From positions 1 to 59,081 of the IMG/VR virus record IMGVR_UViG_3300033143_004027: DNA of 59,081 bases; one strand, given 5' to 3'. The position numbers were made by a program, and so were the translations under genes. Under the pieces are notes generated by a model. That model saw only the letters and a list, made by a program, of their open reading frames with translations. It made no database searches and was not told the origin of the DNA. The DNA is from a virus. Below, piece after piece: positions 6,177 through 53,739 of the stretch; the stretch's first letter is position 1; each line of letters opens with the position of its first letter.

Positions 6177-7003
6177 TACTCATCGCCCCCCAAGTCCAAT
6201 CGTTCTATACTGCCTTTGGGCGGTTGGTCGTATTCGTCTGGCTGGCTATCCTCCAGTGCATCAACTTGTTCCTGCCACTCGGCCAGCAGATTGCCAATAT
6301 GCTCCGGCCCCGCCTTGTTAATTTCGGTTCGTATCTTGGCAGCCGAATAGCCAAGCAGGTCACCAAGTTCATTGGCTTCGGCAATCAGGTCTTCGCCAAT
6401 CCCGGGGGCCGCCTCCTCACCGTCTTCAATTTCCATCTCAACTGACGGAACAAAGACGGCACCGTTCTCGCTAACCTCTACTGGCGCACCCAATTCCTCG
6501 GGCAAGTATAGCCCACCGATAACATCAGGGAAGACAATACGGGCACAAGCTGCTATTGCCCGCCACCTGCACATAATTCGCGGGTAGCCCTGCCAGGGCC
6601 CCTTCGTCAGCAGGCCGGCAGTAGTGGCGTCTTTCATTGTGAAGACCTCACGGTGAGTTACATCTATGTCCGACCGGTGCATTGTCACCGCCCAGCCCTG
6701 CTTGTCTGGCTCTTCCGCGCGGATAGCCTCAAACTCAATTCCCGCGCATTTACCGGAGTTGTATATTAGCCCCAGCATTGCCTCGCCTTCCAGCGTTACT
6801 CGCCCGTTGACTACATACATACTGGCAAGGGCCTCCGTCGGCGGGATGCCCAGCTCGTGCCCCTTCTGCATCACAAGGATGACCTGCTCGGTAGTCATAC
6901 CCTTCGGAACGAGTTTGGCTTCTATCACCATATCGGCCAACTTCTGTTTCGCGGCCAATGCCTCGTCAGTCGTATACGCCTGCAACTTCTCACTCTCGCT
7001 CAT
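6176..7003 (-). CDS. recT: RecT-family single-strand annealing protein
   Basis: 275 residues from ATG 7003, preceded by CGGGAGG; an in-frame extension to 7051 covers the leader. Family signatures: QKGHELGIPPTEALASMYVV, GEAMLGLIYNSG, FTMKDATTAGL, WQGYPRIMCRWRAIA and FPDVIGGLYLPEEL. RecT anneals complementary single strands, normally with a partner exonuclease; the Cas4/RecB-like gene at 4554 is the likely partner. A promoter of the recurrent phage type (7041..7068) precedes it. Confidence 0.88.
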   Translation of the reverse strand: MSESEKLQAYTTDEALAAKQKLADMVIEAKLVPKGMTTEQVILVMQKGHELGIPPTEALASMYVVNGRVTLEGEAMLGLIYNSGKCAGIEFEAIRAEEPDKQGWAVTMHRSDIDVTHREVFTMKDATTAGLLTKGPWQGYPRIMCRWRAIAACARIVFPDVIGGLYLPEELGAPVEVSENGAVFVPSVEMEIEDGEEAAPGIGEDLIAEANELGDLLGYSAAKIRTEINKAGPEHIGNLLAEWQEQVDALEDSQPDEYDQPPKGSIERLDLGGDE

Positions 7004-7040: not shown

Positions 7041-7068
7041 AGTATACCCAACCAGCGGGCAACTAAAC
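7041..7068 (-). promoter_or_regulatory. Recurrent phage promoter motif, copy A (recT)
   Basis: GTTTAG, 16 bases ending in GGG, TATACT. It lies ~40 bases upstream of the recT start. One of eight intergenic copies. Confidence 0.6.
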
Positions 7069-7332
7069 CTACTCCCGCGACTCATCCATCAACGTCTTCT
7101 TGGTTACTTGTGGGCCTGGGCTATTGGCCTGTTGCATAACCCGATTGATTTCGCCGACCACCAAACTGTGATAGTAGTCAGCCCTTCGCCGGTCCTTGCT
7201 CGCCACCATCATCAGCGACATAATCAGGGCTATAGCAATAAGCCAAGTAATGACAGCCAGGACTATCACCCAGCCCGAAATCACGAATGGGCCTGCGGGC
7301 AACACGGATTGTAGCCATTCTACGGGGTTCAT
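7069..7332 (-). CDS. Small membrane protein, unknown
   Basis: 87 residues with one long hydrophobic stretch (residues ~18-45, FVISGWVIVLAVITWLIAIA) and a charged C-terminal helix. The promoter for recT starts just at its stop. It might be a membrane accessory such as a holin-like or superinfection-exclusion peptide; nothing in the sequence decides. Confidence 0.5.
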   Translation of the reverse strand: MNPVEWLQSVLPAGPFVISGWVIVLAVITWLIAIALIMSLMMVASKDRRRADYYHSLVVGEINRVMQQANSPGPQVTKKTLMDESRE

Positions 7333-9951: not shown

Positions 9952-9979
9952 ATGATACCCAACTTAACTGTGTATAAAC
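9952..9979 (-). promoter_or_regulatory. Recurrent phage promoter motif, copy H
   Basis: GTTTAT, 16 bases ending in GGG, TATCAT. It lies directly downstream of the consensus sigma-70 promoter, covering its expected start point, so it is either a second promoter or a regulator site. Confidence 0.5.
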
Positions 9980-9981
9980 TT

Positions 9982-10010
9982 ATTATAACTTATTTTGCGG
10001 CCCCTGTCAA
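9982..10010 (-). promoter_or_regulatory. Perfect sigma-70 promoter of the early operon
   Basis: TTGACA (10005-10010), exactly 17 bases, TATAAT (9982-9987): full consensus at both elements with ideal spacing. It drives the run of small genes from 9922 to 643. Confidence 0.9.
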
Positions 10011-10942: not shown

Positions 10943-10972
10943 AGCGTACCCACAGCATAACACATATCAAAC
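10943..10972 (-). promoter_or_regulatory. Recurrent phage promoter motif, copy G (weakest)
   Basis: GTTTGA, 18 bases ending in GGG, TACGCT, overlapping the spacer and -10 of the sigma-70 promoter. A divergent copy; could be an operator. Confidence 0.4.
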
Positions 10973-10982
10973 CTTTTGTCAA
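10954..10982 (-). promoter_or_regulatory. Sigma-70 promoter for the gene at 10909
   Basis: TTGACA (10977-10982), 17 bases, TATGCT (10954-10959). It lies directly after the stop of the gene at 10979 and drives the 10909 to 10073 block. Confidence 0.85.
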
Positions 10983-11793: not shown

Positions 11794-11822
11794 AATCTAC
11801 CCAGTGGCGGCGGTGATTAAAC
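11794..11822 (-). promoter_or_regulatory. Recurrent phage promoter motif, copy B
   Basis: GTTTAA, 17 bases ending in GGG, TAGATT. It lies between the terminator at 11832 and the start at 11784. Confidence 0.6.
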
Positions 11823-11831
11823 CCAGGCACG

Positions 11832-12738: not shown

Positions 12739-13485
12739 TTATTGATAGAATAGATTCCACATATACTCCTTGAGCCGCTTCAACATTATAGCCACTTGTT
12801 CGCGCGTCACAAATTCCTTCCCGTGAAAAAGGCCATCATCAAAGACGGTCATCAAACGCTCCGCCAGTACCCAGTCAACAGCCTCCTGTGCCCAGGGTGA
12901 AATATCGGCCTGCTCGCTGCTTGCTGGTTGTCCTATCGCTGCTCGTGCTTTATCTATAATAGCCACCTCCGCATCAGACAGTCCACCTTCCAATACTTTC
13001 ACGGTTAGCTCGGTTGCCTCGTAGTGCATCGGGTCTTTGAATGAACTCCAGTCGCCCCCCCAGGCAAAACCCCAGGCATTGAAGAATGGAGCCAGGCTAT
13101 GCAACGACGGCGCTATATCCGCTGGCTTGCATCGGTAGTTTGTTCGCCCCCGCTTCTCATCGCCACCACTGCCGTCAGCAAAGTGATGAACATTCAAGTC
13201 AATGGCAATTGCCCAGGCGTGCGGACTCCACGAGCCGCCTCGCCGTGTCTGCCGACAGTTATATGTGCCACCATAATCAGAGCGGTCAACCAGGCTGGAT
13301 TTCCCTGCATCGGCTATGGCTGTCAACACGGCCTCAAGCTGGTCGGCGATGCGCTGGTGAACATAAACCTTCTCTAGGATGGGGACGGGTTTTACAACGA
13401 GCTTAGCACCACCGCAATGTTGTCCAAACCAGTGTGGCACTTGACTGCGGGGCAACGGTTTGATCAGTCCGTTCTTGATTGGCAC
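12739..13485 (-). CDS. Endolysin: M15-type peptidase with an SLH domain
   Basis: 248 residues from a GTG start. SPHAWAIAIDLN gives the zinc-binding His and Asp, and DPMHYE the second His, the pattern of M15 D-Ala-D-Ala or L-Ala-D-Glu peptidases that cut peptidoglycan cross-bridges. The last ~55 residues (ISPWAQEAVDWVLAERLM, FDDG, FHGKEFVTREQVAIMLKRL) form one S-layer-homology domain, which binds cell-wall polysaccharide. An SLH tail hints at a host whose wall carries SLH ligands. The holin follows. Confidence 0.85.
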   Translation of the reverse strand: MPIKNGLIKPLPRSQVPHWFGQHCGGAKLVVKPVPILEKVYVHQRIADQLEAVLTAIADAGKSSLVDRSDYGGTYNCRQTRRGGSWSPHAWAIAIDLNVHHFADGSGGDEKRGRTNYRCKPADIAPSLHSLAPFFNAWGFAWGGDWSSFKDPMHYEATELTVKVLEGGLSDAEVAIIDKARAAIGQPASSEQADISPWAQEAVDWVLAERLMTVFDDGLFHGKEFVTREQVAIMLKRLKEYMWNLFYQ

Positions 13486-15096: not shown

Positions 15097-16144
15097 CGGA
15101 GTCCCCCTTATGTCCTCGCAGGTAAGTCAGGTAATCAACCCCGCCATAGAAGTCCAGTGTCACCCAAAACTTGCGCTCGTCGGGCCAGAGAATAATCACC
15201 GGCACCGACACATAATCCAGCGGGTTGACTGTCTCGTAACCCAGCGACCGACCGTAACTGTCGCGAACCTTGAAAGTTCCAGCCCGAACAAAGACTCCCC
15301 ATCGCCCTTGCTCGTTGGCATAGCTAATAGCCGGTTCGTGCTTGTCGCCGGTGATGCTTATATCAAACGGGCCGTGCTCGCGAAAGAGACGCTTGGCACC
15401 AGCGGTAGCATCGTAAATACTATTGCCCCGAAACTTGTGCCACATACCGATAGAATAGGGCTGCTCACCGACAATGAGGTTGAGTTTGCCACCAGGCCCG
15501 AGGAAAACGGCCTCGCCCTTTCGGGCAAGATATTCGGCGGTATCAAAGTCGCTCACCCGCGTCTCAAAGTATTCGTGCTGCCCGCCGGTATTAGCCAGCA
15601 ACTTCGGTGCCCAGCGTGTCCATATCCAACGGGCAAGTTGCTTCTGATAGCGAGGGCGGACAATCTGCTCATAGCGACCCGACTCGTGGGATAATGCCAC
15701 GAAGTTGTCAACCGAGTCCCCGTTGTCGCAGACAAAGAGGCCAGGGGTTTCAATAATGCGGTTGATGACATTGCCGAGGAGCCGGTGATTAGTGCCAGCA
15801 TTGCCGATGTGCTGGTCGGAGGTTACGGCTATGCCGATGGGGAGTTCCGTGTCTATGGTAATATCAGCTTCATACTGCTCTATATCTGCTTGCTGGAGAA
15901 GTTCACCATAGGCGCAGACCTCTTCAAAGAGGTCGCCCTCCCAACCGTCGGGCGGGCGCTTGAGGTTCGTGATTTCTGCGGAGGGTTCGTCGGAGGCTTC
16001 GTCAATGAGACGCGCAGCCTTGAATGCCCTGCCCCAGCTACCACCCCACTTGGCACCGATAGCGGTAACAGCAGCACGCCGACTACCGTGGACAGCGACC
16101 AACTCGCGCAACTGGTACGCAGTAAAGTCCGATGGTTTTAACAT
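15089..16144 (-). CDS. Calcineurin-like metallophosphoesterase with N-terminal HTH-like segment
   Basis: 351 residues. Metal-binding motifs in order: SDQHIGN (Asp, His), DNGDSVDN (Asp, Asn-like), GGQHEYF in place of GNHE, and ITGDKHEP in place of GHTH. Residues 1-50 (LRELVAVHGSRRAAVTAIG) look like a helical DNA-binding segment. Phage relatives are often annotated as DNA-repair or polynucleotide phosphatases; the true substrate is unknown. Promoter motif C lies just upstream. Confidence 0.75.
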   Translation of the reverse strand: MLKPSDFTAYQLRELVAVHGSRRAAVTAIGAKWGGSWGRAFKAARLIDEASDEPSAEITNLKRPPDGWEGDLFEEVCAYGELLQQADIEQYEADITIDTELPIGIAVTSDQHIGNAGTNHRLLGNVINRIIETPGLFVCDNGDSVDNFVALSHESGRYEQIVRPRYQKQLARWIWTRWAPKLLANTGGQHEYFETRVSDFDTAEYLARKGEAVFLGPGGKLNLIVGEQPYSIGMWHKFRGNSIYDATAGAKRLFREHGPFDISITGDKHEPAISYANEQGRWGVFVRAGTFKVRDSYGRSLGYETVNPLDYVSVPVIILWPDERKFWVTLDFYGGVDYLTYLRGHKGDSDG

Positions 16145-16165: not shown

Positions 16166-16194
16166 AGAATACCCTGCGTAGACAGCGATTAAAC
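16166..16194 (-). promoter_or_regulatory. Recurrent phage promoter motif, copy C
   Basis: GTTTAA, 17 bases ending in GGG, TATTCT, immediately after the stop of the upstream gene and 22 bases before the phosphoesterase start. Confidence 0.6.
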
Positions 16195-16470
16195 CTATCG
16201 CGCCAGAAGCGTATCCAACTTTCTATTCATCTCACGCAAGTCTGCTCGCAACAAATCAAGTTGCTTCTCTGTCCGCTGTTGGTCTTGCCGCGCATCTGTC
16301 TTCGTCTGATATGTCTGCGCGGCCTCGATGCGTGGCAGGGCCGACCTTGCCTGGAAGGATACTGCGCCCCAGGCGGCGGCCCCTGTAATAAAGAGGCCAA
16401 TAACTATCGGTAGTAACCATTTCGGAATTGTAACGCCGCCATTTCCATTGTTCTCGAAAAGTGGCATCAT
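16195..16470 (-). CDS. Membrane-anchored coiled-coil protein
   Basis: 91 residues from ATG 16470 (MMPLFENNGNGG), with TTAGGAGAC upstream. A transmembrane helix (WLLPIVIGLFITGAAAWG) is followed by a coiled coil (RTEKQLDLLRADLREMNRKL). The layout resembles phage XhlA/Rz-like lysis accessories, but the gene sits at the end of the tail-fibre block. Confidence 0.5.
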   Translation of the reverse strand: MMPLFENNGNGGVTIPKWLLPIVIGLFITGAAAWGAVSFQARSALPRIEAAQTYQTKTDARQDQQRTEKQLDLLRADLREMNRKLDTLLAR

Positions 16471-19661: not shown

Positions 19662-19922
19662 CTATTCTATTGGTGTTTTGACCACACGCCCACGGTGCGC
19701 GGTATCAGATAGCGTAAACTCGCCGCCCTGTGTAATGCCATAGTTGTGGCTCCCGTCAAGTTTCGGCAAGCCGTGGCCAACCGCAATTTCTGTGCACCGC
19801 TCGCTGACTGCATTGTTCAATTTGGCCAGCTCTAATTCTGCCTGAGTCAGTTGTCGCTGTAAGTTGCTCAGTTCTGTCTGCTCTTGAACGGTGGCCAAGT
19901 AGCCAGTGCGAATAGTTGCCAT
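19662..19922 (-). CDS. Small coiled-coil protein
   Basis: 86 residues from ATG 19922, with CAAAGGGGGAAGC upstream; the extension to 19976 would cross promoter D. A heptad-like helix (TELSNLQRQLTQAELELAKL) is followed by a Gly-rich beta tail. Possibly a trimerising tail accessory. Confidence 0.5.
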   Translation of the reverse strand: MATIRTGYLATVQEQTELSNLQRQLTQAELELAKLNNAVSERCTEIAVGHGLPKLDGSHNYGITQGGEFTLSDTAHRGRVVKTPIE

Positions 19923-19953: not shown

Positions 19954-19982
19954 ATGATACCCACTGCGGATGGCAATTAAAC
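19954..19982 (-). promoter_or_regulatory. Recurrent phage promoter motif, copy D
   Basis: GTTTAA, 17 bases ending in GGG, TATCAT, just after the stop of the gene at 19984 and ~30 bases before the next start. Confidence 0.6.
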
Positions 19983-19983
19983 C

Positions 19984-21123: not shown

Positions 21124-22041
21124 CTATAGGACGCGGGGTTCCCGTGCGGGCCTTGCCCCCAGCTTGTAAACATTCTTTTCGGGCTGCCAGCGAACGGTGT
21201 AGTATTCTCCACCCGTCACATAAACATCGCGCAGGGGCGGCAGGTAGTTATCATCCCAATACGTTACAAGCCCATCCCCCATACACGACCAGCAGGTGCC
21301 GTGTTCCCATCCCAAGTACGGCAGCGGGTAATCGCAAGGATTAGGGTCAATGCCAGTGCCATTGCAAACGGAGCAAACCTTGTCTTTTACCAAGAATGGC
21401 AGCGCACCTACTGCAATTTTGCTCAGCAAATTACCAGATAAATCATATTGCCATATCTGTGTCGGTCGGCGATAACGGACGCCCGACAGCACTACCCGAA
21501 GAACCCCGCCGGCAAAGTCCATGCCCCACTTGTGGCAATCGTAGTGTCCGGTGTCTGCGTCAATAGTTGCTTGCCACGCGCCCCCCGTTGTGAACCTGCC
21601 GATATAAGCCTTGGTCTCCGATGTTAGCCATAGGTGGCTACCATCCCAAGCAAGCCCAGTCGGAAACGGTAGAAACTCTTCGGGAATAGCCCAGCCCGCA
21701 AGTTCGCTTCCAGTTGTTGCAAACTGCCGTACCATTTGCCCGCATGAGTCTACTACCCAAAGATGTGTCCCGTCCCAAGCAATGTCCTGTATGCAACCAT
21801 TCACAACCTGCCATTGTACCGCCACATCGCCCGATGCACCGAGTCCATAGACGGTGCCACCAAAGGCCGTCCATAAATAGCCCCCGCCGAGACAGACATA
21901 TTGCAATTGGCGAGCCACGGTAGTGTGGTCGGCCTCTATCATCTCCACCTCGGGTACTGGCCAGTGGACGGTTGGCCACGGCTCAGCAACTGCCAGGCTA
22001 CCAGTTGCCAGCAACACTAAAACACAAATTAGCTTCTTCAT
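21124..22041 (-). CDS. Exported beta-propeller-like protein with a DnaJ-type zinc motif
   Basis: 305 residues from ATG 22041, with ACGGAGG upstream. A signal peptide (KKLICVLVLLATGSLAVA) is followed by propeller-type repeats (GGGYLWTAFGG, WDGTHLWVVDS, WDGSHLWLTSE). Near the end CSVCNGTG and CWSCMGDG make one DnaJ-type zinc site, odd in an exported protein. An exported rather than virion role is suggested. Promoter motif E precedes it. Confidence 0.6.
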   Translation of the reverse strand: MKKLICVLVLLATGSLAVAEPWPTVHWPVPEVEMIEADHTTVARQLQYVCLGGGYLWTAFGGTVYGLGASGDVAVQWQVVNGCIQDIAWDGTHLWVVDSCGQMVRQFATTGSELAGWAIPEEFLPFPTGLAWDGSHLWLTSETKAYIGRFTTGGAWQATIDADTGHYDCHKWGMDFAGGVLRVVLSGVRYRRPTQIWQYDLSGNLLSKIAVGALPFLVKDKVCSVCNGTGIDPNPCDYPLPYLGWEHGTCWSCMGDGLVTYWDDNYLPPLRDVYVTGGEYYTVRWQPEKNVYKLGARPAREPRVL

Positions 22042-22081: not shown

Positions 22082-22109
22082 AGTATACCCAGACTCACGA
22101 TGATTTAAC
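22082..22109 (-). promoter_or_regulatory. Recurrent phage promoter motif, copy E
   Basis: GTTAAA, 16 bases ending in GGG, TATACT, about 40 bases before the start at 22041 and overlapping the end of the gene at 22095. Confidence 0.6.
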
Positions 22110-22346
22110 CTTCCCTCGCACCCAGTCCCACTCTGTTGTTGACTGCCCGCCGCCACGAAGCGTTATTGCCATCTCGCCACCCTCAAAGATTATGACGCCG
22201 CCCTCGCCGACATCGTGGTAAGGGCCAGTTACTGCTTGCCCACCGACAAAGATGATAGTGCCACCGTCGTTATGCCAATAAGGCATAATCTGCTCGCCGC
22301 CTGCAAAGACCGCAAGCCCCCCGTCAGCGTGGCTATAAGAGGCCAT
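22095..22346 (-). CDS. Short protein made of GGE repeats
   Basis: 83 residues, almost entirely three repeats of the type GG-x-x-IF-x-GG(E/Q) (GGLAVFAGGE, GGTIIFVGGQ, GGVIIFEGGE). The first unit, YSHADGGLAVF, is nearly the same as YSHANGGLAIF in the adhesin at 16810. Probably a virion surface or attachment module. Confidence 0.55.
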   Translation of the reverse strand: MASYSHADGGLAVFAGGEQIMPYWHNDGGTIIFVGGQAVTGPYHDVGEGGVIIFEGGEMAITLRGGGQSTTEWDWVRGKVKSS

Positions 22347-42693: not shown

Positions 42694-43452
42694 CTATGGC
42701 TTTGGCGTCAAGTTCCACATCGTCCAGGAGGCATTGTCGCCCGCCCAGAGGACGCCCTTGTCCACCATGGATGCGTGACCATCCACCCAGGCAACTCCGC
42801 ATTTCTTGCCGCCAGCGTGCCGAAAAGCAGGCCGATAAACGCTGGGGTATGAAACGAAATATGACCCACCATAATTGTAGCATTCACTAAACATTACAAA
42901 GTTCGTCGGTGACCCAATCTCGCCTTCCCACGCCAGGGTTATGCCTTCGTTCTGGCCATAGCTCATATACTTCTCCATCTCCGTGTCAATACCATAGAGG
43001 CTATTTGTGTACGGCCCGCCACGTGGCTCCATATCGTTCTTCCAATCGGGGCAAACTATAATGCGCGACTGGCTAAGGTTGTCTGCTGTGCCCACATAGT
43101 TTGCACCCTGCTGTGTACCAGCGAAGTAAGGTCGGACGCTGCCCCCGTGAAGTTCAATAGTCTCAGGCGCACCGTCCGGTCGGATGCAGTAAAACCACGG
43201 ATTCCAGCCATCCAAGTTGAACGTTGGAAACCGGTCGTTGTAGTCGGCCACATACATCTTTACGGCCAGAGCGAGCTGCTTAATATTACTTAGGCAGGTC
43301 GTCTGCCGCGCCATTGCCCTGGCCTTGGCAAAGACTGGGAACAGAATTGCTGCCAGGATAGCAATAATCGCTATCACCACCAGCAGCTCTATCAGCGTGA
43401 AACCCTTGTGACCAGTTGTCAATGTGCTCTTAAGCCTCTTGTGTTTCTTCAT
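42694..43452 (-). CDS. Prepilin-like protein with H-x-DG-type tail
   Basis: 252 residues. [20 protein letters not shown] is a class III prepilin signal: Gly before Phe, Glu at +5, then a hydrophobic helix. The downstream [19 protein letters not shown] and the C-terminal [17 protein letters not shown] resemble the H-X9-DG group of pseudopilin-like proteins that abound in Planctomycetota, Armatimonadota and Lentisphaerota. Very unusual in a phage. CAAGGAG precedes the ATG; an untypical 200-base leader precedes it. Confidence 0.85.
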
Positions 43453-43655: not shown

Positions 43656-43684
43656 AGCATACCCACTGGCGGAGGCGGTTAAAC
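43656..43684 (-). promoter_or_regulatory. Recurrent phage promoter motif, copy F (prepilin island)
   Basis: GTTTAA, 17 bases ending in GGG, TATGCT. It overlaps the stop of the gene at 43679 and leads into the accessory island starting with the prepilin gene. Confidence 0.6.
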
Positions 43685-43942
43685 CTTAGTATCAAAGTCC
43701 TGCTGTATTCGGGTGCCCATACCACGAAGTTGCCAGCAATCCCCAGGGCCTATATCGTGGGTTATCTCCTGCCCCCAGGCACTCGCTAAGCCCACCCCAT
43801 CCACCTTGCGCTGCTTCTTTCGCATCCTAAGCCTGCCTCCCCAGCGCCTCCAGAGCCAATAACCAAATCGGTTTAGCAGGCCGCCATCAGTATCCGGCTC
43901 AAGGAACTCTACCCAGACCTCCCAAAGCACTTCGTCGGCCAT
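43679..43942 (-). CDS. Unknown protein near MuF
   Basis: 87 residues, Trp-rich at the N-terminus (LWEVWVEFLEPD, RFGYWLWRRWGG) with a basic stretch (RLRMRKKQRKV). No family recognised. Confidence 0.45.
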   Translation of the reverse strand: MADEVLWEVWVEFLEPDTDGGLLNRFGYWLWRRWGGRLRMRKKQRKVDGVGLASAWGQEITHDIGPGDCWQLRGMGTRIQQDFDTKV

Positions 43943-47725: not shown

Positions 47726-50074
47726 CTAAAGACGGACGGGTTCCACAAGCCGGATACGGGCCTTCTTGCGTACGGGTTCTGTAAGTGCAGCATATGCCCC
47801 GCTGAGTGCGTCAACCTGGTCATCGTGCATCCCGTGTGGAAAATCGTCAACCTCGTCTAAGAATGCTTGATTCCACTCGCCGCGCAAGAGTTTGAGGTTG
47901 CCTGCCTCGGCGGCGATGGCGGCACCCTCTGCCCGCATAACCTTATCACCAGTCACGCGGTCACCCTTGAAGTTGTAACCTATCAGTAAGCGGCTATAGG
48001 CATCAATCGTATCTACCCCGCTGCTGCCTGGTTCCTGTTCCATACGCTGGCGAACATCCTTACCGTCGGCTCGCACTTGTGCTAAGATGTTCTCGGCATT
48101 TACACCAGGCGTCCCCCGAAACCGCCGAACGTGCTTCACGAAGAACATTCTACCCTGCTGCCCAAGCAACAATCCGACCGTCCAGTCACCCTTCTCTGTC
48201 GCCCCTCTATCCCAGTAACGAACATACCTTATGCCTTCGGTTGGCACCTTGTCAACAATCTCAAACCATTCGCGCCGGAAGAGTCCCCCCTCGCGGACGG
48301 TGGGGTTCTGCTGGTAGAGTGCCGCCCACCAGTAGCCGCCTATGGTATCCTTGATTTCCAATAGTCTCTCAAGCGGAAACCGCTCTGGCCAGAGGGCCTC
48401 ACCCACTGCGCGGCCCAACTCGTCTTCTTCTTCGGCTATGGCGGGAAAGTTAATAACCTCAAAGTGCTCATCTGTCTGGTCAATAATGCGCCCAGGCAGG
48501 TCGTCTTTATTCCAGCGCGTTGTGATTATGACGACAGCACCGCCTGGCTCTAACCGGCTATATGCTGTCGAACGATACCAGTCCCATTGCTTCTCACGAA
48601 TGGTAAGTGAGTTGGCTTCCTCGGCGTTCTTGGTGGGGTCGTCAATAAGTAGCACATTCGCGCCACGCCCCGTAACCGCACCACCAACGCCCGCCGTATA
48701 CATACCCCCATCATACCCGTCAAGCTGCCACTCACCCCGCGCAGATACATCGCCGCGAACCGTGACATCGGACAAGCCCCGCTCATAAGCATCCCGCAAT
48801 GAGTCACGAACCCTCATCCCCCAACTTGCAGCAAAGTTGGCCTCGTAGCTGGCCAATATTATGCGCTTCTCTGGAAAGGTGCTCAGATACCAAACGGGAA
48901 ACCAATGGCTGCACATCTCGCTGTTGCAGGTTGGCGCCATACCCTTGCCCGCAAGAAACTGGTGAGACGATGCGGCCACTTCAATACATACCGTATCCGC
49001 GCGTCCCGCCTCTTCAATTGTCAAATAATGATTTGGGCTTCTGCGGGGCTCAATACAGCGGGCTGCCTTGCGCGGCAAGCTGGCGGCATTGGGCATATAA
49101 AACAAGACCCGATATTTAGGCCCGCAGTCAGTACCATAAAGTGTTGCGCGCCCCTTTATCAAAGAAGCCTTATAGCCAAGACTGACAACAAGTTCGCGCA
49201 CACCATTGGCCAAGGCTATTTCTGTACTACAAAACTCTATCTGCCCGCCCGGGGATACATATCCATCAGTATCAATAAGACCCTGCAACAACGATAATCG
49301 CTGGCCTGGGCTTGCCCGCAGGTAACAGGCTGGTACATGCTTATTACCCAGCAGGTTGGCACGACGCAATAAAACCTGCAACCCCAAAACGCCAAAGGTA
49401 TCGGCAGTCGCCCTGTCGCTGGTCTTAAATGCTTCTGCAATACGTTGCCGAATATGCGCGCCGTCTTCGCCGATAGCAGTGATGCTGGCCTGTGTGGAAC
49501 TTCCATCCCCCAGCCAAACCCCAAGTGTATACGGGTCAATGGGAAGTTCGCGGACTGGCAGGTCTAATCCGTCGTGCTTGTCTACCATAACCCTGCGAGG
49601 TGATGTGCGCCCCGCAAGCTTTTCGGTAGTCCAGCGCGTCCGGCGGTTGGGATACTTTCTGTCGGCGCGTACCATCCAATCGTGTTCTGCGTCGGCTATC
49701 AATTCCTCACCACTATCAAGCTTGACACGGAACACAGGACGGTCTTTCCAAACAGGAGATTTGCCTGTTACAACAGTCGGCTTACCCCGCTCGTCAAATA
49801 CAAAGTCACCGACCTCAATATCCCCAATGCAAGACCAGCCATCGGGCGTCGGTATCGGCGTATCAAGAGCCAGGGCCTTTCCGTGCCTTGGTGGCATTGT
49901 CACAAGCAGCCGAGGGCACTTACCGTATGCTACATCTATCAGCTTTTGATTTAACAGCTTGAGGTGTGGCGGGCGTTGCCAGCGGCCATTAGTCAGCGTG
50001 ATTGCCAGCATCGCCGGCGTGGCTCTCGACAAGTCTGTCCTCAAGTTGTTCAACAAGTTCTCTGGTAGGCTCAT
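47726..50074 (-). CDS. terL: Terminase large subunit, interrupted by an intein
   Basis: 782 residues; 464 after removal of the 318-residue intein. The split falls inside Walker A: MPPRHGK is joined after splicing to SEMCSHWF, recreating GKS. Walker B is VLLIDDP; the nuclease part shows RYWDRGATEKGDWTVG and HDDQVDALSGAY. TerL pumps DNA into the prohead and cuts it. The start at 50074 overlaps terS by 86 bases; an ATG at 50011 is an alternative. Confidence 0.9.
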   Translation of the reverse strand: MSLPENLLNNLRTDLSRATPAMLAITLTNGRWQRPPHLKLLNQKLIDVAYGKCPRLLVTMPPRHGKALALDTPIPTPDGWSCIGDIEVGDFVFDERGKPTVVTGKSPVWKDRPVFRVKLDSGEELIADAEHDWMVRADRKYPNRRTRWTTEKLAGRTSPRRVMVDKHDGLDLPVRELPIDPYTLGVWLGDGSSTQASITAIGEDGAHIRQRIAEAFKTSDRATADTFGVLGLQVLLRRANLLGNKHVPACYLRASPGQRLSLLQGLIDTDGYVSPGGQIEFCSTEIALANGVRELVVSLGYKASLIKGRATLYGTDCGPKYRVLFYMPNAASLPRKAARCIEPRRSPNHYLTIEEAGRADTVCIEVAASSHQFLAGKGMAPTCNSEMCSHWFPVWYLSTFPEKRIILASYEANFAASWGMRVRDSLRDAYERGLSDVTVRGDVSARGEWQLDGYDGGMYTAGVGGAVTGRGANVLLIDDPTKNAEEANSLTIREKQWDWYRSTAYSRLEPGGAVVIITTRWNKDDLPGRIIDQTDEHFEVINFPAIAEEEDELGRAVGEALWPERFPLERLLEIKDTIGGYWWAALYQQNPTVREGGLFRREWFEIVDKVPTEGIRYVRYWDRGATEKGDWTVGLLLGQQGRMFFVKHVRRFRGTPGVNAENILAQVRADGKDVRQRMEQEPGSSGVDTIDAYSRLLIGYNFKGDRVTGDKVMRAEGAAIAAEAGNLKLLRGEWNQAFLDEVDDFPHGMHDDQVDALSGAYAALTEPVRKKARIRLVEPVRL
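48923..49876 (-). mobile_element. Class-3-type intein with LAGLIDADG endonuclease in terL
   Basis: Begins with Ala (ALALDTPIPTPDG) and ends APTCN before Ser, so no Cys or Ser stands at position 1. It carries the WCT triad of class 3 inteins: Trp67 (HDWMV), Cys297 (TVCIEV) and Thr316 (APTCN). The penultimate residue is Cys in place of His. Between lie two LAGLIDADG-type helices, LGVWLGDGSS and LLQGLIDTDG, of a homing endonuclease. Confidence 0.88.
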
Positions 50075-50667: not shown

Positions 50668-50748
50668 TGGTGGAGGCGGAGGGTATCGAACCCTCATCCA
50701 GAGGAGGGCACTTCGGCCCCCGCCACTGTCGAAACCTTTCTCGCCCCC
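50668..50748 (-). ncRNA. tmRNA-like RNA lacking the mRNA-like (tag) domain
   Basis: 81 bases starting one base after the stop of the gene at 50750. A 7-bp acceptor stem GGGGGCG/CGCCTCC includes a G3-U70 pair with discriminator A and an encoded CCA, the alanine identity set. GGTTTCGACAG is the hallmark D-loop of tmRNA. The T arm is GAGGG, TTCGATA, CCCTC. In place of pseudoknots and tag there is only one short hairpin (GGGGGC, CGAAGT, GCCCTC), not a valid 7-base anticodon loop. It is neither a normal tRNA nor a full tmRNA. Confidence 0.7.
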
Positions 50749-51313: not shown

Positions 51314-51613
51314 CTAAATTGTTATTACATTGTCGGGCAGGTCACTTGTCAGCCCATAGTTATCGCAGTGGTATAGGAAGTCCTTCTTGATTGCTTTAAC
51401 GGCGGCCCGCACCTGGTTGCGTCCGCAGGCGATTGCATATCGGCGGAGGTCTTGCGGCGGAATGTGCTCGCCCTTCAGTAGGCCTTGCCACGCGCCGACC
51501 CTTGCTTCTTGCAGCATATCGTCATACTCAATGCGCGAGTTGTCGCCGCTGGCTTCGCGGGCAATGTGCTGGAGCGTAGTGTCTATGTCGGCTAATAACT
51601 GCTCCTTGTTCAT
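51314..51613 (-). CDS. Sigma-70 region 2-like protein
   Basis: 99 residues. YDDMLQEARVGAWQGLLKGE followed by LRRYAIACGRNQVRAAV matches sigma region 2 (D-x-x-QE-x-x-x-A-x-x-A ... R-x-x-A-x-R-A). There is no region 4 in this chain. The adjacent upstream gene carries a region 4-like HTH. Together they could form a split sigma factor. Confidence 0.65.
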   Translation of the reverse strand: MNKEQLLADIDTTLQHIAREASGDNSRIEYDDMLQEARVGAWQGLLKGEHIPPQDLRRYAIACGRNQVRAAVKAIKKDFLYHCDNYGLTSDLPDNVITI

Positions 51614-51651
51614 AGTCTTCCAACACCTTCCAAGTGTTGTGCGGGGTGATA

Positions 51652-52035
51652 TTATAACTTGCAGCCCAGAAACTTCTTTAGCTTGTCCGTCTTGCGCTCT
51701 ATCGTCTGATTGATATTCGGTTGGCTACAGCCCAGTTTGCCTGCTATCTCCTCCTGCGTCTTCCCCTCCAGGTAGTACATATCAAGCAGCCGCCGGCCCT
51801 TTCTTGACAATGATGCCCAAGCCCGCTGAAAGTCGGCCCGTGTGGTCATAATGTTTATGTCGGCAGGATAGTTGCGTGCTATACTGGTAGCGCCAAGGTG
51901 CGGCGGCCATTCGGTACTTGACCTTCCCCACAATGCCAGCTCGTTAAGTAGCCAGCGGTTTCGCAGGCAAAGCTCAACTAATTCTGGCGTCCACTCATCA
52001 TCGCTGAAACTGGGCCGCTGCCATTCTTCTCTCAC
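51652..52035 (-). CDS. Sigma-70 region 4-like protein
   Basis: 127 residues from GTG 52035, placed by TTAGGAGGTG. The C-terminal ~55 residues (FQRAWASLSRKGRRLLDMYY, GKTQEEIAGKLGCSQPNINQ) are a sigma region 4 HTH. The N-terminal ~70 residues are unassigned. Phage ArpU/RinA-type late activators also look like region 4, which is the main alternative. Lies behind a terminator and before the region 2-like gene. Confidence 0.7.
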   Translation of the reverse strand: MREEWQRPSFSDDEWTPELVELCLRNRWLLNELALWGRSSTEWPPHLGATSIARNYPADINIMTTRADFQRAWASLSRKGRRLLDMYYLEGKTQEEIAGKLGCSQPNINQTIERKTDKLKKFLGCKL

Positions 52036-52061
52036 TGTTGCACCTCCTAAGGCGCTTACAC

Positions 52062-52106
52062 AAAACAAAAGCCGGCCACAAGGCGCTCCTGCGCCTGCAA
52101 CCGGCT
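52062..52106 (-). terminator. Intrinsic terminator before the sigma-like genes
   Basis: AGCCGG and CCGGCT close an outer stem; a perfect GGCGC/GCGCC hairpin sits inside; TTTTGTTTTG follows on the minus strand. Confidence 0.75.
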
Positions 52107-53551: not shown

Positions 53552-53739
53552 TCTATCAGCTTCTTCTCTTGTCGTTTTCTGCTCGGATACTTAAAGCCGC
53601 CAATCTCGGTGATTATACCATCCCGCTGCTTAATGGTCAAGTCCCCGTAGCCGTGCTCGCACCAACGGGCGATATGCTTTATCTTGTCGCCGGACTGTCG
53701 GCTGAGCCAGTCTGTGACTCGCTGAAGGTTGTCGGCCAT
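53548..53739 (-). CDS. Small protein between the methyltransferases
   Basis: 63 residues (MADNLQRVTDWLSRQSGDKI, then IKHIARWCEHGYGDLTIKQ). ATG overlaps the stop of the upstream methyltransferase (TGATG). Basic and helical. Unknown. Confidence 0.5.
   Translation of the reverse strand: MADNLQRVTDWLSRQSGDKIKHIARWCEHGYGDLTIKQRDGIITEIGGFKYPSRKRQEKKLIE

Follow-up and report, generated by a model that had tools for sequence, protein, structure and literature searches.

A phage genome of 59,081 bases carries two short, adjacent genes, one encoding a protein with a clear sigma factor region 4 and the other a protein with a marginal match to region 2, and the best single reading of this pair, to which we assign a probability of roughly 0.48, is a phage two-subunit sigma factor with the layout of SigO/RsoA and a SigB-like specificity. 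The analysis covers virus record IMGVR_UViG_3300033143_004027, to which no host genome is attached, at its full length, hereafter the window. Both open reading frames (ORFs) are present on the minus strand (the region 4 gene at 51652..52035 and the region 2-like gene at 51314..51613), each with coding-like codon usage and its own separate start. The region 4 gene comes first, and the region 2-like gene follows after a gap of 38 nt. As an earlier, sequence-only reading had claimed, no chain contains both regions, which are instead encoded by separate, adjacent genes. We favour the two-subunit reading because a clear region 4 is accompanied by an adjacent region 2-like gene that is the best match in the window, in the order of sigO and rsoA, and because of the position of the pair between replication and packaging genes, the statistics of a recurrent promoter motif, the SigB/F-like character of region 4, and the presence of sigma-70-like sites in the early part of the genome.

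Nearly all genes of this phage are carried on the minus strand. In the order of transcription, DnaB, a radical-SAM protein, a PQ-loop protein and two DNA methyltransferases (59-52 kb) are followed by the pair, then by a small exported-looking protein, and then by the small and large terminase subunits, portal, capsid, tape measure and others (50-16 kb), while recT and an exonuclease occupy the left end; the pair consequently sits at the replication/packaging boundary. The host is probably an uncultured bacterium of the phylum Armatimonadota, as suggested by the nearest large terminase (TerL) in the genome collection, which is 54-55% identical and belongs to a Candidatus Hebobacteria MAG of this phylum. 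A pilin-like protein that carries an N-terminal prepilin motif together with a DUF1559 domain, encoded amid the structural genes (42694-43452, minus strand), and the S-layer homology (SLH) domain that accompanies an M15 peptidase domain in the endolysin (12739-13485, minus strand) also fit the phylum. A Planctomycete host, suspected at first from the DUF1559 pilin-like protein, was dropped given the Hebobacteria TerL match and the SLH-domain endolysin. The TerL gene itself (47726-50074, minus strand) is split by a 318-residue intein, which starts with Ala (A1) and ends in CN before Ser, and whose block residues look like those of a class 3 (WCT) intein; a close relative, L002, possesses the same TerL with the intein absent.

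The region 4-like helix-turn-helix previously noticed at the end of the 127-residue protein is confirmed by both profile and fold. Residues 66-123 match Pfam Sigma70_r4_2 (1.7e-8) and Sigma70_r4 (2.2e-7), together with NCBIfam TIGR02937 (sigma70-ECF, 1.8e-11), all exceeding their cut-offs, and a home-made region 4 profile scored the protein at 30.9 bits vs 5.4 for the next among 609 window ORFs. In a single-sequence AlphaFold model the region 4 part has a pLDDT of ~90, and its top Foldseek neighbours are sigma domain 4 structures (probability 1.00, at E values of just 0.03-0.3). The N-terminal 60 residues are possibly a remnant of region 3. The gene starts with GTG at 52035, preceded by the Shine-Dalgarno sequence AGGAGG (52043..52048, minus strand), which from the sequence and from folding of the gap lies within a small hairpin, GCGCCTTAGGAGGTGC.

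The 99-residue protein is the weak leg of the observation, its assignment to region 2 being supported by profile comparison yet marginal. Pfam Sigma70_r2 matches residues 16-72 with an E value of 1.2e-4 and 22.3 bits vs a cut-off of 24, such that the profile search set as a test of this assignment in the sequence-only reading yielded a sub-threshold match, and two NCBIfam sigma models match weakly, including TIGR02989 at 5.9e-4. We also built a region 2 profile from Armatimonadota sigmas and ran it on the 609 window ORFs and on 5000 shuffles of the 99-residue sequence. The protein ranked first in the window (11.8 bits, with the runner-up at 7.2), and its score was equalled by one shuffle in 5000. 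The aligned core (residues 15-44, QHIAREASGDNSRIEYDDMLQEARVGAWQG) corresponds to regions 2.1-2.2, the part by which known sigmas attach to the beta-prime coiled coil; regions 2.3-2.4 are weak. A low-confidence single-sequence model consists of four helices, for which Foldseek against the PDB gave no sigma domain 2 match. The gene starts with ATG at 51613, with a weaker GGAAG ahead of it. What stands of the original region 2 claim is thus the best match in the window, centred on regions 2.1-2.2; what does not is a score above the Pfam cut-off, or a convincing match to regions 2.3-2.4.

The marginal region 2 match lends some weight to an alternative in which the 127-residue protein is a stand-alone late activator of the ArpU/RinA kind that works with a host sigma, and the 99-residue protein is unrelated or a decoy. 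A short chain with a C-terminal region 4 is also the architecture of PHROG 3512 and 11138, and a place just ahead of the packaging genes would suit such an activator. However, the region 2-like ORF is both the first of 609 and the immediate next gene, and the promoter motif described below has a defined -10 element that is not of the sigma-70 type; we therefore consider this alternative improbable.

Consensus scans revealed a sigma-70-like promoter, TTGACC-17-TATAAT with a TG (53612..53640, minus strand), upstream of a methyltransferase gene and then of the pair; it matches the sigma-70 consensus at 11 of 12 positions and is located within the preceding small ORF. The interval between the methyltransferase gene and the region 4 gene holds a strong hairpin followed by a T-run (52062..52106, minus strand), which its sequence and fold suggest to be terminator-like, and which has GCGCCTT in common with the Shine-Dalgarno hairpin of the region 4 gene. 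The two hairpins are a possible attenuator, and our guess is that expression of the pair is delayed until transcription reads through the first of them.

Two phages of the same TerL lineage are informative about this location. In one (L034), a sigma that combines regions 2 and 4 in one chain is encoded ~3.5 kb upstream of TerL; in another (L021:1-654), a chain in which region 2 is accompanied by a region 3-like part lies ~2.5 kb upstream of TerL, and no region 4 was detected in this chain, which is possibly another incomplete sigma. The replication/packaging junction consequently seems to be a site for sigma genes in such phages, albeit that a sigma or sigma-like gene was found at this place in just 2 of 50 records. 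The intact sigma of L034 can also be taken as support for a different view, namely that the pair has no function and is what decay or rearrangement has left of a one-chain sigma, or else stems from faulty assembly, and the nearest region 4 matches among the phage records inspected are likewise one-chain sigmas. Yet both ORFs are open, with coding-like codons and their own starts, and the eight motif sites considered below suggest that a reader exists, so that we regard a remnant or artefact as very improbable. A single sigma divided by a simple frameshift is ruled out by the gene order, in which region 4 precedes region 2.

Searches for relatives identified no close match to either protein in viral contigs, and none to the region 4 protein in genome contigs. 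Named phages offered weak matches or one-chain sigmas only, and 291 Armatimonadota genomes provided the region 4s of host sigmas only, plus one spurious-looking match. Relatives were found via TerL, the two methyltransferases, DnaB and portal, but the sole close one (L002, 4 kb) stops short of the pair.

The six intergenic sites at which the sequence-only reading had recognised a recurrent phage promoter motif have GGTTTAA-N13/14-GGGTATNNT in common, and the motif is real: with up to one mismatch allowed, the minus (coding) strand has six sites and the plus strand none, vs 0.03 expected from the mean over 30 dinucleotide-preserving shuffles. Three of these sites have a spacer of N14 and no mismatch (43659..43685; 19957..19983, 35 nt ahead of the start at 19922; and 16169..16195, 25 nt ahead of the start at 16144), and a fourth has N14 with one mismatch (11797..11823). 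The remaining two have N13 and one mismatch (22085..22110, 44 nt ahead of the start at 22041, and 7044..7069, 41 nt ahead of the recT-like start at 7003). A matrix scan adds two weaker sites, likewise on the minus strand, of which one (10946..10973, N15) overlaps TTGACA-17-TATGCT and the other (9955..9980, N13) directly follows a perfect TTGACA-17-TATAAT (9982-10010). All eight sites are intergenic, and in six of them the -10 end lies 25-45 nt ahead of a start codon, the exceptions being 43685 and 11823, with 207 and 111 nt to the next called start. Only a few intergenic sites strongly resemble sigma-70 promoters; they occur in the early part of the genome and include the perfect site before 9980. 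In 50 phage records, which are mostly TerL relatives and among which none is known to carry the pair, GTTTAA-N13/14-GGGTA does not occur in exact form.

The phage motif equals the SigB consensus, GTTTAA-N15(+/-2)-GGGTAT, for which N14 is apparently optimal (PMC9847131), and promoter-like GTTTAA-N12-17-GGGTAT sites are present in the genome. Region 4 of the 127-residue protein is related to the same class of sigma factors. Among the Armatimonadota sigmas fetched, its nearest matches are two of SigB/F type (L121 and L122, both 6e-9), followed by L204 (3e-7), while the remaining sigmas tested gave 1e-4 or worse. L121 and L122 show strong matches to the SigB/F/G sigma of the Hebobacteria MAG or to one another, and L122 adjoins an RsbV/RsbW-like gene. 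The NCBIfam ranking similarly places SigB/F models next after the generic sigma model, although a whole-length SigB/F/G match is not reached (TIGR02980, 29.6 bits vs a cut-off of 234.35, over region 4 only). A SigB-like region 4 and SigB-like -35 elements within one genome fit each other, a correlation that falls short of proof.

Neither the SigB match nor the possibility of a host reader had been raised in the sequence-only reading, which had linked the pair directly to the motif. The identity of the motif with the SigB consensus and the SigB/F-like region 4 strengthen that link, but a host SigB/F/G sigma would be an equally natural reader. Under this alternative a SigB/SigF-type sigma of the host reads the phage sites, and the pair has another role, for instance modifying that holoenzyme or acting at other promoters. 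The Hebobacteria MAG with the related TerL (54-55% identical) encodes a true SigB/F/G sigma (287 bits vs a cut-off of 234), and two Armatimonadota genomes contain the exact motif 8 and 4 times vs 0 in the control, and so a host sigma could read the phage sites. Moreover, at 8 of the 11 Armatimonadota sites inspected (L224-L234, among which L224 and L226 are near-identical copies), GGTTTAA-N14-GGGTAT runs on as GGGTATAAT, and several shortly precede an ORF. Against this, the exact pattern is not enriched over the 291 Armatimonadota genomes as a whole (24 matches vs 21 in the reversed control), and the ~3 kb surroundings of four host SigB/F-type genes contained no site within one mismatch of the motif. 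Reading by a host sigma also leaves the SigB-like region 4 of the phage unaccounted for, and the host is itself a deduction from the phage genome. Overall, we judge a host reader unlikely, while giving it appreciable weight as the main rival of the two-subunit reading.

SigO-RsoA is the most familiar example of a sigma in two pieces, and T4 gp55-gp33 its most familiar analogue in phages. In Bacillus subtilis, domains 4 and 2 of SigO-RsoA (YvrI-YvrHa) reside on separate proteins of the yvrI-yvrHa operon, sigO preceding rsoA, and the phage pair resembles this system in layout, with separate region 4 and region 2 proteins encoded by neighbouring genes in the same order (PMC8103513). The phage pair differs in being virus-encoded, in its SigB-like motif, and in its smaller region 4 chain (127 residues, vs 22.5 kDa for SigO; PMC10141391). 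The analogy with SigO/RsoA, already drawn from the sequence, thus holds for the split layout and the gene order, and is weakened by a region 2 that stays sub-threshold. Group 3 sigmas (SigB/SigF/SigG) are the nearest relatives of region 4, and the phage motif is identical to the SigB consensus, but the pair consists of two short chains. In T4, gp55 carries a region 2 domain and gp33 clamps the flap (PMC7892883; PMC2988020); this too is phage late control with a region 2 protein apart from a flap-binding protein, but gp33 is structurally unrelated to sigma region 4 (PMC7892883), whereas the partner here has a clear, true region 4. ArpU/RinA-type regulators (PHROG 3512) share the short chain, the C-terminal region 4 and the location where the late genes begin, but here the next gene is region 2-like and a defined -10 element is part of the motif. 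A literature search combining "split sigma factor" with "phage", mostly without subscription papers, returned no phage example.

For the two-subunit reading, we infer that the two proteins associate with one another, bind core polymerase, read the motif and do so at a particular time. The region 4 chain would hold the beta flap of RNA polymerase and read the SigB-type -35 element (GGTTTAA), and the region 2 chain would engage the beta-prime coiled coil and melt the GGGTATNNT -10 element. Early genes, and the operon that runs into the pair, would be expressed from sigma-70-like promoters. With both proteins present, perhaps after a delay imposed by the terminator-like hairpin, host RNA polymerase would be redirected to the eight SigB-like sites, which precede head, tail and recombination genes. 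The two-subunit reading is weakened by a region 2 that is below cut-off, weak in 2.3-2.4 and, in its low-confidence model, without a match to sigma domain 2, by the lack of any homolog among the sequences searched, and by the host SigB/F sigma as a possible reader of the motif. It is also weakened by the placement of the sites, since one precedes recT, usually an early gene, and none directly precedes the terminase genes. In its fullest form, the proposal is that both halves are true sigma domains of a SigB-like viral two-subunit sigma that switches an Armatimonadota phage to the copies of host stress-type promoters that it carries, the requirement for both proteins forming an AND gate; we put this forward tentatively, with the odds somewhat against it. 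A phage pair of two real sigma domains, accompanied by a well-defined set of candidate targets in its own genome, would open the origin of split sigmas and their logic to direct tests and, if the proposal is true, would serve as an AND gate that is both natural and orthogonal. Such a pair would further suggest how genes are timed in phages of an almost unstudied phylum, perhaps by copying the stress-promoter code of the host.

A further feature of this genome is an 81-nt tmRNA just upstream of the terminase genes (50668-50748, minus strand; Rfam RF00023, 60.8 bits vs a cut-off of 47, E 2.4e-21). None was found in 12 related loci. It keeps both ends, with CCA and the G3-U70 pair, and is without the mRNA-like domain; such a molecule might act as a decoy that counters ribosome rescue.
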